Shown: piece after piece, positions 3,504-55,842 of the stretch | Numbering within the stretch: position 1 is the first letter of the stretch | Layout: every line of letters begins with the position of its first letter | From: Phycisphaerales bacterium | GTDB taxonomy: Bacteria > Planctomycetota > Phycisphaerae > Phycisphaerales > UBA1924 | Length of the DNA: 64,000 bases | Reading direction: 5' to 3' | Assembly: GCA_029260475.1 (NCBI GenBank) | Contig: JAJDDE010000146.1 | Span: 1-64,000, forward strand | Translations under genes and position numbers: made by a program | The notes under the pieces: model-generated | Databases searched by the model: none | Told to the model about the DNA's origin: nothing | What the model saw: only the letters and a program-made list of their open reading frames with translations

Positions 3504-4754
3504 ATGCTGATCCCGCTGGGCACCGATGTACGCCTGAGAAGGCCGACGCTCGTCACGTATGTGCTGATGGCGCTGTGCGTATTTGTGTTCGTCGGGCAGA
3601 AGGTCTCCGACAACCGCACGCCCTCGAACGAGCCGCCGCGGTACTACCAGTTCATGCTCTTCTCGTTCGACGACAACCCCGACCGCGTGATGGGTGAGTT
3701 CGAGCAGCAGGTGCCGGGCGAGCGTGGGGTGATCCACCTGAACCCGGGGCGCTGGTACCAGTACGTGACCTACCAGTTCCTGCACGGGAGCTGGATGCAC
3801 CTGCTGGGGAACATGGTCTTCTTGCTGGTCTTCGGCCCTCCGGTGGAAGACCGCTTCCGCCGGTTCGGGTTCCTCGGCTTCTACCTGTTCGGCGGCATCC
3901 TCGCGGGCGTCGCGCACGGCGTGCTCGAAACGCACACCGAGTCGGTCGGGGGCGTGATCTACAGGTCCGTTGCGCCCGTGCTCGGCGCCTCGGGATCGAT
4001 CGCCGCGGTCTCTGGCGCGTACCTCGTGCTCTTCCCATTCGCGCACGTGCGTTTGATCTCGCTCTTCGGGATGTTTGCGCTCCCGGGCTGGATGTTCGTG
4101 TGCTTGAGCATCTTTTTCGACCTCGTCTTTCTGGCGTCGGGTGATCGGGGCGTGGCGCACTTTGCGCACCTCGGTGGGTACGGCGCTGGCGCTGGGGTCG
4201 CGATGCTTCTGCTGTGGCGCAAGGTGCTGCCTCGCGAGACATACGATCTCTTCTCGATGGCCAAGCAGGCCCACCGCCGGCGCACATACCGTGCGCTGGT
4301 CGCGAAGGGTCCGAGCAGCTCGCCCTTCATCAAGGACGCCGCGATCCCGAGAAAACTGGCCTTAAAAGACCACCACCCCGACCCGCACAGCGAGGAGCGG
4401 AGGGCGATCGCGAGCCTCGCCCCCGCCGAGCCGAAGGCCGCGACCGACCGTTACCTCGAACTCTCGGGCACCGACGAGCACTGCACGCTCGCGAGAGACG
4501 CCCAGCTCGTGGTCGCGAACACGCTCTTCGAGCGGGGCGATCATGAGAACGCGGTGGAGGCGTACGAGCGCTTCCTCAAGCGCTACCCGGACGACCGCGA
4601 GACCGACCAGACGCGACTGCTCGTCGCGATGGTGTGCGCGCGCCACCTGAACGACCCGGTCTGCGCCACCAGGCACCTCGACACGCTGGACGAGGCGGGG
4701 CTGCCCGAGGGCCTGAGAGAACTCGCGCAGACGATCCGCGAGGAACTGTCGTGA
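3504..4754 (+). CDS. rhomboid family intramembrane serine protease with C-terminal TPR-like helical region
   Basis: Multiple TM segments, catalytic GASGSIAAVSG and GVAHFAHLGGYGAG; C-terminal helical repeat (ANTLFERGDHENAVEAYERFLKRYP). Confidence 0.85.
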   Translation: MLIPLGTDVRLRRPTLVTYVLMALCVFVFVGQKVSDNRTPSNEPPRYYQFMLFSFDDNPDRVMGEFEQQVPGERGVIHLNPGRWYQYVTYQFLHGSWMHLLGNMVFLLVFGPPVEDRFRRFGFLGFYLFGGILAGVAHGVLETHTESVGGVIYRSVAPVLGASGSIAAVSGAYLVLFPFAHVRLISLFGMFALPGWMFVCLSIFFDLVFLASGDRGVAHFAHLGGYGAGAGVAMLLLWRKVLPRETYDLFSMAKQAHRRRTYRALVAKGPSSSPFIKDAAIPRKLALKDHHPDPHSEERRAIASLAPAEPKAATDRYLELSGTDEHCTLARDAQLVVANTLFERGDHENAVEAYERFLKRYPDDRETDQTRLLVAMVCARHLNDPVCATRHLDTLDEAGLPEGLRELAQTIREELS

Positions 4755-47484: not shown

Positions 47485-47663
47485 TTCTTGCACGTCCAGG
47501 ATCGACGCCGCGGGTCGCTCCAAGGTCATGATCCCGGAATGGTGTTTGTGCCCGGTGGTTGATCGGGTATGTTCATGGTGTACCGATCCTGCGGAATTCG
47601 CAGGGCGTCATGCATGATGCGTTCCGAGTTTGGGCGCGTCCCGTTATTCAGGAGAAGACCAGT

Positions 47664-48698
47664 ATGCATCTTCCCAAGCCCCGCCGCCCCCGCGGCTTCA
47701 CGCTGATCGAGCTGCTCGTGGTGGTCAGCATCATCGCGATGCTGATCGCGCTGCTGCTCCCCGCAGTCGGCGCCGCCCGCAAAGAGGCGTACAAGTCCAC
47801 CGATGTCCAGTCGATGAAGCAGCACGCCATCGGCCTGAACATCTACGCCTCGCAGAACAACGACACCCTCCCGACACCGCCCAAGGTCTCGCCGACCTCG
47901 GCGGCCACGTCGCCCTACGGGCGCGTCGGCAACATGGCGTGGCGTTTCGGTGACGAGGACTTCCCGACCCCCGCGGGCTTCGCCTTCCCGGACACGTTCC
48001 CGTCCCTCTACGACATCGGGGGCGGCGAGTTCTCGTTCAACGACAACAGCATCTTCTCGCGTCAGTCGATGGCCGACGCCTACTGGCACGTGCTCGCGCC
48101 GTACATGGTCGATGGCGAGGGCATGGGCGCTCTGCAGGACATCTTCTACTCCGCGGCCGACTCGGAGGGGAAGCGTGATCGGGACCGCATGATCGACGAG
48201 CTCGCGCAGAACTCCGGCGAGTGGAGCTCGGTGCTCAACAGCGTGAACGACCTGAACAGCGAGAAAGGTCCCTCCTTCCGGTACGCGACGGCTTCGATGG
48301 TCGATCCGAACGTCATGTACCAGGGCGGCTGGTACGCGAACGTCAACCAGCGCCTCGACATCCAGCAGACGAGCTTCTACCGGCACGTCCGACGCCACCC
48401 GCAGGCCAGCGTCCGCTTCCCGTCGCAGAAGGGCGTCTTCTACATGCAAGAGGCCTTCTACAACCCGCAGCACCAGTTCTGGTTCGAGCCCTCCGTGTAC
48501 AGCCCCGTCTGCATGATGGACGGCTCGGCGCGCATCTCCGAGGTCTACAACGAGACCATCTGGTGGGACCCCGACGACATCACCGGCGTCTTCATCTTCT
48601 TCATCATCCAGGATGGCGAGAACTCTGATTCGTACTACCCGCCAACGATCATGCTCAACGAGGGCGGTATCCTCGGGCGCGATCTCGATTCCCCGTAA
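47664..48698 (+). CDS. prepilin-type (pseudopilin-like) protein, cassette unit 2
   Basis: [32 protein letters not shown]; shared [26 protein letters not shown] and [12 protein letters not shown] blocks. Confidence 0.9.
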
Positions 48699-48950: not shown

Positions 48951-49247
48951 GCCCGCGCGGAGCCGAGAGCGACCGCATCGCAGCCCTATCAAAGCCATTA
49001 CGGACACCAAGTGATGAATATTTGGGGGCATCCCTTTGATGGTGATTTGCGAATCGGATACGGTGGCAACCCGGTACATCCGTCACGGGCGGGACGTGGC
49101 GCGTCAGGAGTCCTAGAAATGGGACACGTCAAAAACCGAGCAAGCGGGTGGTTGGTCGCCCGGTGTTCATTCGCTGCCCCGTGATTGTGGGGCGATCATT
49201 CGGTCCGTCGGAGTTCGTCGGGCCCTTCTTTATCCGGAGACCTTCCC

Positions 49248-50288
49248 ATGACAACACGCAAGATCACCCGATCCGGCTTCACCCTGATCGAGCTTCTCGT
49301 GGTGGTGAGCATCATCGCGCTGCTGATCAGCATCCTGCTCCCCGCCGTCGGTTCCGCCCGTCGTCAGACGCGCGTGACGCTGGACATCCAGAGCATGAAG
49401 GAGCACGGCAACGGTATGGCGATCTACTCCGCCTCGAATCGGGACACGCTCCCGAACGCCCCCGAGACACCCCGGACCTCTGCCAACACCAGCCCGTACG
49501 GGAGTCAGGGTCGGATCGCGTGGAACTTCGGCGACGGCGGTTTCCCGACGCCCGCCGGCTTCGAGTTCCCCGACGCGATCCCCACGCTCTTCCAACTCGA
49601 CAGCCTTGGCGTGCAGTTCGGTGACGGCAGCATCTTCGCCCGCATGAGCATGTGGGACGCCTACTGGACGGTTCTCGCCCCCTACATGGTCGAGGGCGAA
49701 GGCATCGCCGCGCTGCAGGACATCTTCTACTCCGCTTCTGACCTCGAAGCCAAGCGTGACCGCGACAGCCTGTTCGATCAGCTCGCCGCGAACAACGGCA
49801 GCTGGAACGGCGTGCTGGACGGCACCAACGATTTCGATTCGGAGAAGGGCCCGTCCTTCCGCTACACCACCGCCTCCATGGTGGACTTCAAGACGCAGCG
49901 CACCATCGGCTCTCCGAACTTCGGTGACATCGCCGGCGACCGCGTTGATATCAACCAGAACCTCTTTTACCAGTACGTCCGTCGCATCCCGCAATCGAAC
50001 GTGAGCTTCCCGTCGCAGAAGGGCATGTTCCACATGTTCCTTGCGCATCACAACCCGCAGAACCAGTTCTGGTTCGAGCCGGGCGTCGCGTGCCCGACGA
50101 CGATGGCGGACGGTTCGGCGCGCAGCGCAGACGTCTTCAACGAGACGCTGCACTGGGACCCGAATGACCTCTCGGGCTGCTTCGTGCTGCTGACGGTCAC
50201 CGACGGCATCAACGCTGACACACAGTTCCCGCCCACGCTGATGATCACCGAGAACGGCATCCGCGGGCGTGATCTCAAGGCCAACTGA
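49248..50288 (+). CDS. prepilin-type (pseudopilin-like) protein, cassette unit 3
   Basis: [86 protein letters not shown]. Confidence 0.9.
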   Translation: MTTRKITRSGFTLIELLVVVSIIALLISILLPAVGSARRQTRVTLDIQSMKEHGNGMAIYSASNRDTLPNAPETPRTSANTSPYGSQGRIAWNFGDGGFPTPAGFEFPDAIPTLFQLDSLGVQFGDGSIFARMSMWDAYWTVLAPYMVEGEGIAALQDIFYSASDLEAKRDRDSLFDQLAANNGSWNGVLDGTNDFDSEKGPSFRYTTASMVDFKTQRTIGSPNFGDIAGDRVDINQNLFYQYVRRIPQSNVSFPSQKGMFHMFLAHHNPQNQFWFEPGVACPTTMADGSARSADVFNETLHWDPNDLSGCFVLLTVTDGINADTQFPPTLMITENGIRGRDLKAN

Positions 50289-52652: not shown

Positions 52653-53849
52653 ATGTCCACCGCTCTCTCCCAGCGCCCCGAGGTGCAGTCGCTCGCCCTT
52701 CACGGCGGCACGCCCGTCGCGGACGAGAAGATCCAGCTCATCGCGGTCCGTCTCGATGAGTCGGACATCAACGCCGCCCTCGAGGTGATGCGCTCGGGCA
52801 TGCTCGCCCAGGGCCAGCGCGTGATGGCCTTCGAGGAATCCTTCGCGGCAGTCAGCGGCTCCAAGCACGCAGCGGCCTGTGCCAACGGTACCTGCGCCCT
52901 GCAACTCGCCTACGGCGGTCTCCTCGAGCGCGGCGACGAGGTGCTCTGCCCCGCATGGACATACGTCGCAACCGCCTCCATGCTCGAGGCCGCCGGCGCC
53001 AAGATCGTCTGGGTGGACGCGGACCCCGTGACCTACGGCATCGACGTCGCCGACGCGCGTCAGAAGACCACCGACAAGACCGTCGCCATTGCAGCGACCC
53101 ATCTCTACGGCAACCCCGTTGATATCGACGGCGTCGAGAAGCTCGCGGTCGATAAGGGCCTGTCGGTCGTCTACGACGCGGCGCAGGCGCACCTCGCGAC
53201 CTACAAGGGGCGCGGCATCGGCGCTTTCGGCGACGCGGTCACCTACTCCTTCTACCCCACCAAGAACATGACCACCGGCGAGGGTGGCATGGTCACCACC
53301 AACGACGAGGACCTGCTCGGCAAGCTCCGCGCCCTCCGCTCCCACGGCGAATCCGCCAAGTATGAGCACTCCACCATCGGCTTCAACTACCGCATGACCG
53401 ACCTCGAGGGCGCCATAGGCGTCGAGCAGCTCAAGCGTCTGCCCCAGTACACCCAACGCCGTCGCGAGAACGCCAAGGCGCTCGACACCATGCTCGCCAG
53501 CATCCAGGGCCTGCACGCCCCGACGCCCACCGACGGCGCCGAGCACGCCTACCACCTGTACGCGATCCGCATCGACGAAGACGCCTTCGCAAAGCCCGAG
53601 GAAGGCAAGACGGTCCGCGACATGCTGCAGACCGCCCTGCACGCCGAGGGCGTCGCGACCGCGGTCCACTACCCCCGCTCGCTCACCCGTCAGCCCGTCT
53701 TCGATCGTCCGGGCGTCGAGCACCAGCCCGTGAGCGACCGCCTCTCGCGCACGCTCATCTGCGTGCCCATCCACCAGTACCTCTCCGAGTTGCAGCTCAG
53801 CAAGGTCGGCGAGGCCCTCGCCAAGGTCGCCAGCGCCTACCGCGCCTGA
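52653..53849 (+). CDS. DegT/DnrJ/EryC1/StrS family aminotransferase
   Basis: ANGTCALQLAYGGL, VVYDAAQAHLATYKGRGIGAFGDAVTYSFYPTKNMTTGEGGMV, GFNYRMTDLEGAIGVEQL. Confidence 0.93.
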   Translation: MSTALSQRPEVQSLALHGGTPVADEKIQLIAVRLDESDINAALEVMRSGMLAQGQRVMAFEESFAAVSGSKHAAACANGTCALQLAYGGLLERGDEVLCPAWTYVATASMLEAAGAKIVWVDADPVTYGIDVADARQKTTDKTVAIAATHLYGNPVDIDGVEKLAVDKGLSVVYDAAQAHLATYKGRGIGAFGDAVTYSFYPTKNMTTGEGGMVTTNDEDLLGKLRALRSHGESAKYEHSTIGFNYRMTDLEGAIGVEQLKRLPQYTQRRRENAKALDTMLASIQGLHAPTPTDGAEHAYHLYAIRIDEDAFAKPEEGKTVRDMLQTALHAEGVATAVHYPRSLTRQPVFDRPGVEHQPVSDRLSRTLICVPIHQYLSELQLSKVGEALAKVASAYRA

Positions 53850-53862
53850 GTTCACGCCCGCG

Positions 53863-54297
53863 TCACGACGCGCCCACCGTCATGCCGATCACTTCGCGGG
53901 TGCGCTGGTGGATCAGCTGCGCGATGGTCACGCTGTCGAGCGAGTCGAGGAACGCCCGCTTGGCCTCATCGAGCGCGGAGCGGAGCGGGCAACCGGCGTC
54001 CAGAGGGCACATCCCCGCCTCGCGGTGGCACTGCGCGAGATCGAAGTCGGGCTCCAAGCCCGCGACGACCGTCCCGACGCTCAGGCGCGCCGGGTCACAC
54101 GAGAGTTCGACCCCGCCGCCCCGCCCGGGCGTCGCCCGGACCCACTCCAGATCGTGCATCGCCTGCACCACCTTCGCGAGGTGGTGCTGCGAAACGCGCA
54201 GCCCGTCTGCGAGGCTGCGCACCGTGCGGCGTTCGTCGCTGGCGCTCAGCACCAGCAGCACGCGCAGCGCGAAGTCGGTTCGATCGGTGAGCCGCAT
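53863..54297 (-). CDS. Rrf2 family transcriptional regulator (NsrR-like)
   Basis: MRLTDRTDFALRVLLVLSAS…SQHHLAKVVQAMHDLEWVRATPGRGGGVEL; Cys cluster CHREAGMCPLDAGC. Confidence 0.88.
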   Translation of the reverse strand: MRLTDRTDFALRVLLVLSASDERRTVRSLADGLRVSQHHLAKVVQAMHDLEWVRATPGRGGGVELSCDPARLSVGTVVAGLEPDFDLAQCHREAGMCPLDAGCPLRSALDEAKRAFLDSLDSVTIAQLIHQRTREVIGMTVGAS

Positions 54298-54324
54298 GCC
54301 TTGACCTCTGGTGTGACGGGAGTA

Positions 54325-54347
54325 TTGTGGTATTCAGTATACCACAA
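54325..54347. promoter_or_regulatory. perfect 9-5-9 inverted repeat; candidate Rrf2/NsrR-like operator
   Basis: TTGTGGTAT-TCAGT-ATACCACAA in the 65-bp gap between the divergent regulator and truncated haemoglobin genes. Confidence 0.8.
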
Positions 54348-54362
54348 AGAACGAGGCCGACG

Positions 54363-54791
54363 ATGATAGATCGAGAATTGCCCCTGACCGAACCGAGCGC
54401 CGACACCCGCGGCGTGAACCCCGAACAGGCCCAGGAGATCGCGAGACTCGTGGACCGGTTCTACGAGGAAGCGCGCGCGGACGCGATGCTCGGGCCGATC
54501 TTCGTGGATCGCGTCGCCGACTGGGATCGTCATCTGGCGACCATGCGGACGTTCTGGGGCACCGTCGCCTACCGGGACGGGCGGTACGCCGGGCGGCCCA
54601 TCGACGCGCACCTCCCGCTGGCCGAACTGACACCCGAACACTTCGCGCGATGGCTCGAGCTGTGGGAGCGGACGGTGGACGACGTGGTGGAGTCGGACAT
54701 CGGTGAGCACCTGAAACTGATGGCCCATCGCATGGGCACTTCGATGTCGCACCGCCTCACGGGTCGTGCGCCGAGCCCGGCCTCTGAATGA
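54363..54791 (+). CDS. group III truncated haemoglobin-like protein
   Basis: IARLVDRFYEEARADAMLGPIFVDRVADWDRHLATMRTFWGTVAYRDGRYAGRPIDAHLPL…HFARWLELWERTV. Confidence 0.85.
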   Translation: MIDRELPLTEPSADTRGVNPEQAQEIARLVDRFYEEARADAMLGPIFVDRVADWDRHLATMRTFWGTVAYRDGRYAGRPIDAHLPLAELTPEHFARWLELWERTVDDVVESDIGEHLKLMAHRMGTSMSHRLTGRAPSPASE

Positions 54792-54855: not shown

Positions 54856-55842
54856 TCATCCCGGCTCCGGGAACTCCACAACAAGCGCGCTGAGCACGCC
54901 CTCCGGATCGATCGTCAGCGTGTCCACCACGCTGGGCAGCAGCACGGTGTCGCCGGTGCGCACGCGCGTCTTCTGGCCCGATTCATCCTCCAGGGTGCCC
55001 GCGCCGTCAACGCACATCAGCACCGAGGGCCTGGCGGCGTCGAAGGCGACGGACGTCGGCTCCATCCACCGCTCGTGCGCGATCGTGTAGTAGGGGGTCG
55101 CTGCGAGCGGGCCGTCGTCCCCAGCGCGTTTGGAGTGGGCAGGGTCGAGTGGGCCCAGGTGCGTACACGCGAGGGCCTGCTCGACGTGCAGCGTGCGCCC
55201 CTCGCGTCCCCAGTCGAAGACGCGGAACGTGGTGTCCGAAGGCGTTTGCACCTCCGCGACCAGCACGCCCCCGCCCAGCGCGTGCAGCGTCCCCGAGGGA
55301 AGGGTGTGGCTGTCGCCGGCCCGCGCGGGCACCGCGATCAGCAGCTCGCCGACGGTGCCCCGCGTGATCGCCTCGCGGAGCGCCGCCTCGGTGGTGCCCT
55401 CGGGCAGGCCCAGGTACAGCATCGCGTCCGGCTGCGCGTTCACGACGTACCACGTCTCGGTCTTCAGGTGCGCCTCGGGGTGGTCGCGGGCGTAGGCGGG
55501 GCTGGGGTGGACTTGCACGGACAGGTTCGTGCGCGCGTCGAGGTACTTGAGCAGCAGCGGGAAGCCGCCGGCCTCCGACAGGCGGAGGTCGCCCATGAGG
55601 TTCGTGCCCATCGCGGTGATCGCGTCACGCAGCGTGAGGCCACGCATCTCGCCGTTGGAGATCATCGAGCGGGCGGCAGCGCCGCCAGCGCCGTCCTTGC
55701 TCGTGCTCGCCAGGTCCGCGAGTTCCCACGATTCGCCGATCGGCTCGCCCGGCGGGAGGGGCTTGTTGAGCGCATCGAGCGCCCGCCCGCCCCAGACCTT
55801 GGGGACGAGCATCGGCGTCATGACGAGTGGGTAGGGTCGCAT
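54856..55842 (-). CDS. manA: mannose-6-phosphate isomerase, class I-like
   Basis: KVWGGRALDALNKPLPPGEPIGESWELAD, LLLKYLDARTNLSVQVHPS, KTETWYVV, LPSGTLHALGGGVLVAEVQTPSDTTFRVFDWGR. Confidence 0.9.
   Translation of the reverse strand: MRPYPLVMTPMLVPKVWGGRALDALNKPLPPGEPIGESWELADLASTSKDGAGGAAARSMISNGEMRGLTLRDAITAMGTNLMGDLRLSEAGGFPLLLKYLDARTNLSVQVHPSPAYARDHPEAHLKTETWYVVNAQPDAMLYLGLPEGTTEAALREAITRGTVGELLIAVPARAGDSHTLPSGTLHALGGGVLVAEVQTPSDTTFRVFDWGREGRTLHVEQALACTHLGPLDPAHSKRAGDDGPLAATPYYTIAHERWMEPTSVAFDAARPSVLMCVDGAGTLEDESGQKTRVRTGDTVLLPSVVDTLTIDPEGVLSALVVEFPEPG

Follow-up and report, generated by a model that had tools for sequence, protein, structure and literature searches.

An NsrR-like Rrf2 regulator and a group III truncated haemoglobin are encoded divergently around one 23-bp palindromic operator in a Phycisphaerales bacterium (contig JAJDDE010000146.1, positions 1 to 64,000; this 64,000-nucleotide stretch is hereafter the window), and the operator is kept in all six Phycisphaerales pairs that were compared. 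We consider it likely that the pair is a minimal one-operator, autoregulated NsrR-type switch, in which the holo-protein would repress over the promoter and nitric oxide (NO) would release it.

Divergent gene pair and shared operator

The initial annotation, made from the letters and a list of open reading frames, described an Rrf2 protein with the Cys cluster CHREAGMCPLDAGC that diverges from a truncated haemoglobin across a 65-bp gap containing a perfect 9-5-9 inverted repeat, and all of these elements were recovered. The cluster is present in the regulator translation, the coordinates confirm the divergent arrangement with start codons 65 bp apart (gap 54298-54362; haemoglobin ATG at 54363), and a repeat search of the window located TTGTGGTATTCAGTATACCACAA at 54325-54347 exactly as given, 27 bp from the regulator ATG. 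The features of the locus are as follows.

53863..54297, minus strand: nsrR-like Rrf2 regulator, 144 aa (Pfam Rrf2, NsrR sequence and fold matches, invariant columns)
54301..54328, plus strand: possible sigma-70-type haemoglobin promoter TTGACC-N16-TATTGT (consensus scan 9/12, 0.0 expected in shuffles; weak)
54325..54347, no strand: 23-bp palindromic operator TTGTGGTAT-TCAGT-ATACCACAA, common to both genes (repeat search, comparison, NsrR-box likeness)
54363..54791, plus strand: group III truncated haemoglobin, 142 aa (2ig3 by sequence and fold, residues invariant in 37 distinct relatives)
Ending at 53849: DegT/DnrJ-type aminotransferase gene, flanking the pair
54856-55842, minus strand: phosphomannose-isomerase-type gene, flanking the pair

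Both flanking genes point towards the pair; the regulator and haemoglobin genes therefore stand alone, and each is apparently monocistronic. The putative -10 element of the haemoglobin promoter overlaps the operator, and little confidence attaches to the -35 element, since part of it coincides with the ribosome-binding region of the regulator. Elsewhere in the window, the products of two neighbouring genes (47649-48695 and 49245-50285) appear to be paralogues, and both have pilin-like methylation motifs at the N-terminus.

Identity of the regulator and the haemoglobin

The regulator matched Pfam PF02082 (Rrf2) at 6.7e-27 and scored above the cut-off of TIGR00738 (Rrf2), and its best PDB match by sequence (phmmer) was S. 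coelicolor NsrR (5n07, 1.3e-18). For the predicted model of the protein (mean pLDDT 85), the best Foldseek match was 7b0c, [4Fe-4S]-NsrR bound to a 23-bp operator (TM 0.85), ahead of RsrR, CymR, and IscR. The protein retains Cys90, Cys97, Cys103, Asp8, and Arg12 as well as the winged-helix motif; among 24 relatives, the three cysteines and Arg12 are invariant and Asp8 is kept in at least 90%. In S. coelicolor NsrR, Asp8 is a cluster ligand and Arg12 a salt-bridge partner, and these residues hold and relay the cluster state (PMC5411485). The cysteine spacing C-x6-C-x5-C is constant in six Phycisphaerales proteins, and relatives range from x4 to x7.

Against the NCBIfam equivalog models, the regulator scored 77.3 bits for NsrR (cut-off 182) and 80.3 bits for RirA (cut-off 193). 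The NsrR model appears to have been built on enterobacterial-type proteins, and the low score counts against the name of NsrR equivalog, not against NsrR-like function. In the phylogenetic tree, the regulator is separated from IscR and from the three other Rrf2 proteins of the genome (support 98/96) and falls into a supported clade with the NsrR references and one protein which we take to be RirA-like from its cysteine segment, so that NsrR and RirA are not separated. Judged by sequence, the regulator is best named NsrR-like rather than an NsrR equivalog, and the earlier assignment to an NsrR-type regulator draws support from the closest structure, the kept cluster residues, and, within the limit just given, the tree.

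For the haemoglobin, a 2-on-2 globin, the closest solved structure is 2ig3, the group III truncated haemoglobin of C. jejuni (E 2.7e-14), which is also the first match by fold; with Pfam Bac_globin the protein reaches 18 bits, just below the cut-off of 21. Tyr34, Phe47, His57, His83, and Trp97 are invariant among 37 distinct relatives, and Tyr34, His57, His83, and Trp97 align with heme-pocket residues of 2ig3. In the helix assignments, His83 is presumably the proximal residue and Tyr34, His57, and Trp97 the distal ones. The group III assignment made at the outset is supported by the sequence and fold matches to 2ig3 together with the invariant heme-pocket residues. No 3-on-3 globin was found when the genome was searched for one; NnrS gave no match either, but nor did its control, so that this second negative carries no weight.

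Relation of the operator to the published NsrR box

The NsrR box published for the proteobacterial regulon is gATGyAT-N5-ATrCATc (Rodionov 2005, PMC1274295). The operator has the N5 centre and the GyAT/ATrC core of this box with the next two bases of each half-site changed, and when it is read as 11-1-11, 10 of 11 positions pair, which matches the 23-bp size of NsrR operators. Both kinds of box are found just upstream of NsrR-like genes in Planctomycetota (AAGATGCATCACTTATACATGTT in L170 and AACTGGTATACGTGATACCAGTT in L176). Considering that the N5 centre and GyAT core are common to the published box and that both kinds occur in Planctomycetota, the 9-5-9 repeat is best read as a local form or variant of the known NsrR box, and box specificity seems to have shifted within Planctomycetota.

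Canonical ATGyAT-type or TGGTAT-type boxes were seen upstream of Rrf2 genes in other Planctomycetota classes (L170, L171, L178, L181, L183, and L176). Rhodobacterales loci carry GGTATT-N3-AATACC, and at L072 and L074 (Roseovarius and related) two tandem palindromes of this type lie just upstream of the NsrR-like genes, before position 4001, which suggests a double operator. In several alphaproteobacterial MAGs (L087-L091), near-identical NsrR-like genes follow a frame resembling a binding protein, and the upstream palindrome is absent.

Homologous pairs elsewhere and the signal sensed

Divergent pairs of Rrf2 and group III haemoglobin genes were also detected on plasmids of Fuscovulum (followed by hemerythrin, nnrS, and nnrU), Defluviimonas (followed by hemerythrin), and Sphingobium (followed by hmpA). 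The gaps of the Fuscovulum and Defluviimonas pairs hold the GGTATTTACAATACC palindrome, and in all three plasmids the haemoglobin starts a longer operon, whereas it stands alone in the window. In Roseomonas, hmpA and the haemoglobin gene form a run that is divergent from the regulator gene; a Marinimicrobia contig (L084) has a divergent pair with AAGAGGTATTCATAATGCCTATT in its gap, and no strong palindrome was found at the divergent pair of a Polyangia contig (L082). Because hmpA, nnrS, nnrU, and hemerythrin genes neighbour homologous pairs, an NO-stress context is supported for these homologues, and by analogy this favours the earlier proposal that the pair in the window may be an NO/nitrosative-stress module. 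The pairing of Rrf2 with a truncated haemoglobin, or of a group III haemoglobin with NsrR, was unreported in the non-subscription papers searched.

A different signal with the same operator and cluster logic appears rather unlikely. In that case the regulator would resemble RirA or RsrR and sense iron, oxygen, or redox state through its Fe-S cluster, and the haemoglobin would serve oxygen or respiration rather than NO detoxification. The similar scores from the RirA and NsrR models and the RirA-like protein in the regulator's clade are consistent with such a sensor, as are the cbb3 oxidase genes beside some homologues and the C. jejuni group III haemoglobin, which is NO-induced, yet is thought to serve respiration rather than NO protection (PMC4106858). 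The truncated haemoglobin of H. pullorum was also reported to be much slower with NO than a single-domain globin (PMC5577044). However, the operator is in NsrR-box format, NsrR is nearest by fold, homologous pairs adjoin hmpA and nnrS, and no iron-uptake gene adjoins the pair in the window, all of which count against this alternative.

Uniqueness and conservation of the operator

The genome that contains the window is 3.43 Mb in size and 97% complete. Neither a second operator copy (up to 3 mismatches; window and whole genome) nor a second TGGTAT-N5-ATACCA core (12 bases, up to 1 mismatch; whole genome) was found, and the scan proposed initially for defining the regulon thus returned a single site. 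The lack of any second site supports the notion of a self-contained operator and, with one operator in the genome, the circuit would be local and autoregulated.

The divergent pair is present in the window genome and in four others from its GTDB family, and a sixth pair was identified in another Phycisphaeraceae MAG (L067). A search of 163 family genomes detected the regulator in exactly five, all of them genomes with the divergent pair, and in none of the others. The initial annotation had named absence of the repeat upstream of orthologous pairs as evidence against it; the box was found in all five family pairs and in the sixth (6/6 gaps), and no copy differed from the 12-base core at more than one position. 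When the loci were aligned on the box, identity between pairs of loci was 94% in the core columns and 35% in the 5-bp spacer, 29% in the left flank, and 40% in the right flank.

Relatives of the haemoglobin were found in 48 of 150 family genomes. The operator survey covered 30 family haemoglobin loci, and at the 25 without an adjacent regulator the box was absent in every case, with at least 3 core mismatches across the approximately 260 bp upstream examined. The box therefore accompanies the regulator, not the haemoglobin, and the co-occurrence count is not a strict probability, since the genomes are related and some contigs end near the gene. When the full pattern was searched across the class (up to 3 mismatches), 109 of 298 genomes had matches; these are mostly background and not evidence, as control matches appeared at similar rates.

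We consider it very improbable that the repeat arose by chance, or that it forms an RNA hairpin or terminator with no link to the regulator. Perfect 9-bp inverted repeats do exist elsewhere in the window (15 listings with arms of at least 9, several being one repeat at differing loop sizes), but nearly all of the others are GC-rich; the operator is kept in all six pairs around a spacer that varies freely, it is missing where the regulator is missing, and no terminator-like feature was found. Among 3000 dinucleotide-preserving shuffles of the gap, 2 produced a perfect inverted repeat whose arms were at least 9 long; the comparative evidence is stronger than this statistic, and together they led us to reject a chance origin, which is refuted as far as the comparative data go. 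A second perfect 9-5-9 repeat, GCACCACCTTCGCGAGGTGGTGC at 54165-54187, is GC-rich, lies within the regulator coding region, and is probably coincidental.

Proposed mechanism and comparison with known systems

Alongside the observed anatomy, conservation, and co-occurrence of site and regulator, we infer a switch whose cluster, DNA binding, repression, NO signal, and haemoglobin chemistry would run as follows. By homology, one subunit of the Rrf2 dimer would bind the cluster through Cys90, Cys97, and Cys103, and the partner subunit would contribute Asp8. The holo-regulator would occupy the 23-bp operator, over the probable -10 element and start of the haemoglobin promoter, and such occupancy may repress both genes, including the regulator's own. 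NO would attack the cluster, the repressor would release the operator, and haemoglobin would be made until NO is consumed.

The pair resembles S. coelicolor NsrR with its hmpA1, hmpA2, and nsrR operators (PMC5411485, PMC9338935) in the Rrf2 fold, the three cysteines with Asp8 and Arg12, the very small regulon, the 23-bp operator, and, as we would expect here, autoregulation. However, S. coelicolor NsrR has the spacing C-x5-C-x5-C rather than C-x6-C-x5-C, its operator bases differ, and its target is a flavohaemoglobin, whereas that in Phycisphaerales would be a group III truncated haemoglobin. The proteobacterial regulon (PMC1274295) shares the N5-centred palindrome and GyAT/ATrC core but has ATGyAT in place of TGGTAT and targets hmp, hcp, ytfE, and nnrS instead of a single gene. 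A truncated-type globin as the sole NsrR target was already predicted in 2005 for Legionella pneumophila (glbN-lpg2536, "cyanoglobin" in PMC1274295), as we propose here; by the naming of that study it is a different globin, and it has a reductase partner gene, whereas none adjoins the Phycisphaerales haemoglobin.

Among solved haemoglobins, C. jejuni Ctb (2ig3) is the closest, and its aligned heme-pocket residues are kept. Ctb is controlled by NssR, a Crp/Fnr-type activator, whereas the Phycisphaerales pair has a putative Rrf2 repressor. NssR is described in PMC1274295.

The pair is a well-formed further case of an NO-response design that is already known rather than a new type of system, and it is of interest mainly for its clean presence/absence pattern and for the small, testable circuit. 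It would extend the NsrR-type circuit to Phycisphaerales, and the pattern within one family offers natural paired controls. As a two-gene, one-operator case, it could settle the role of group III truncated haemoglobins through the signal of the regulator. Tentatively, and with some doubt, we suggest that a Phycisphaerales branch of NsrR may have shifted its DNA specificity (TGGTAT for ATGyAT) and reduced its regulon to a single target, the group III truncated haemoglobin, which would hence be a dedicated NO-responsive enzyme and possibly the only globin-based NO defence of the genome.
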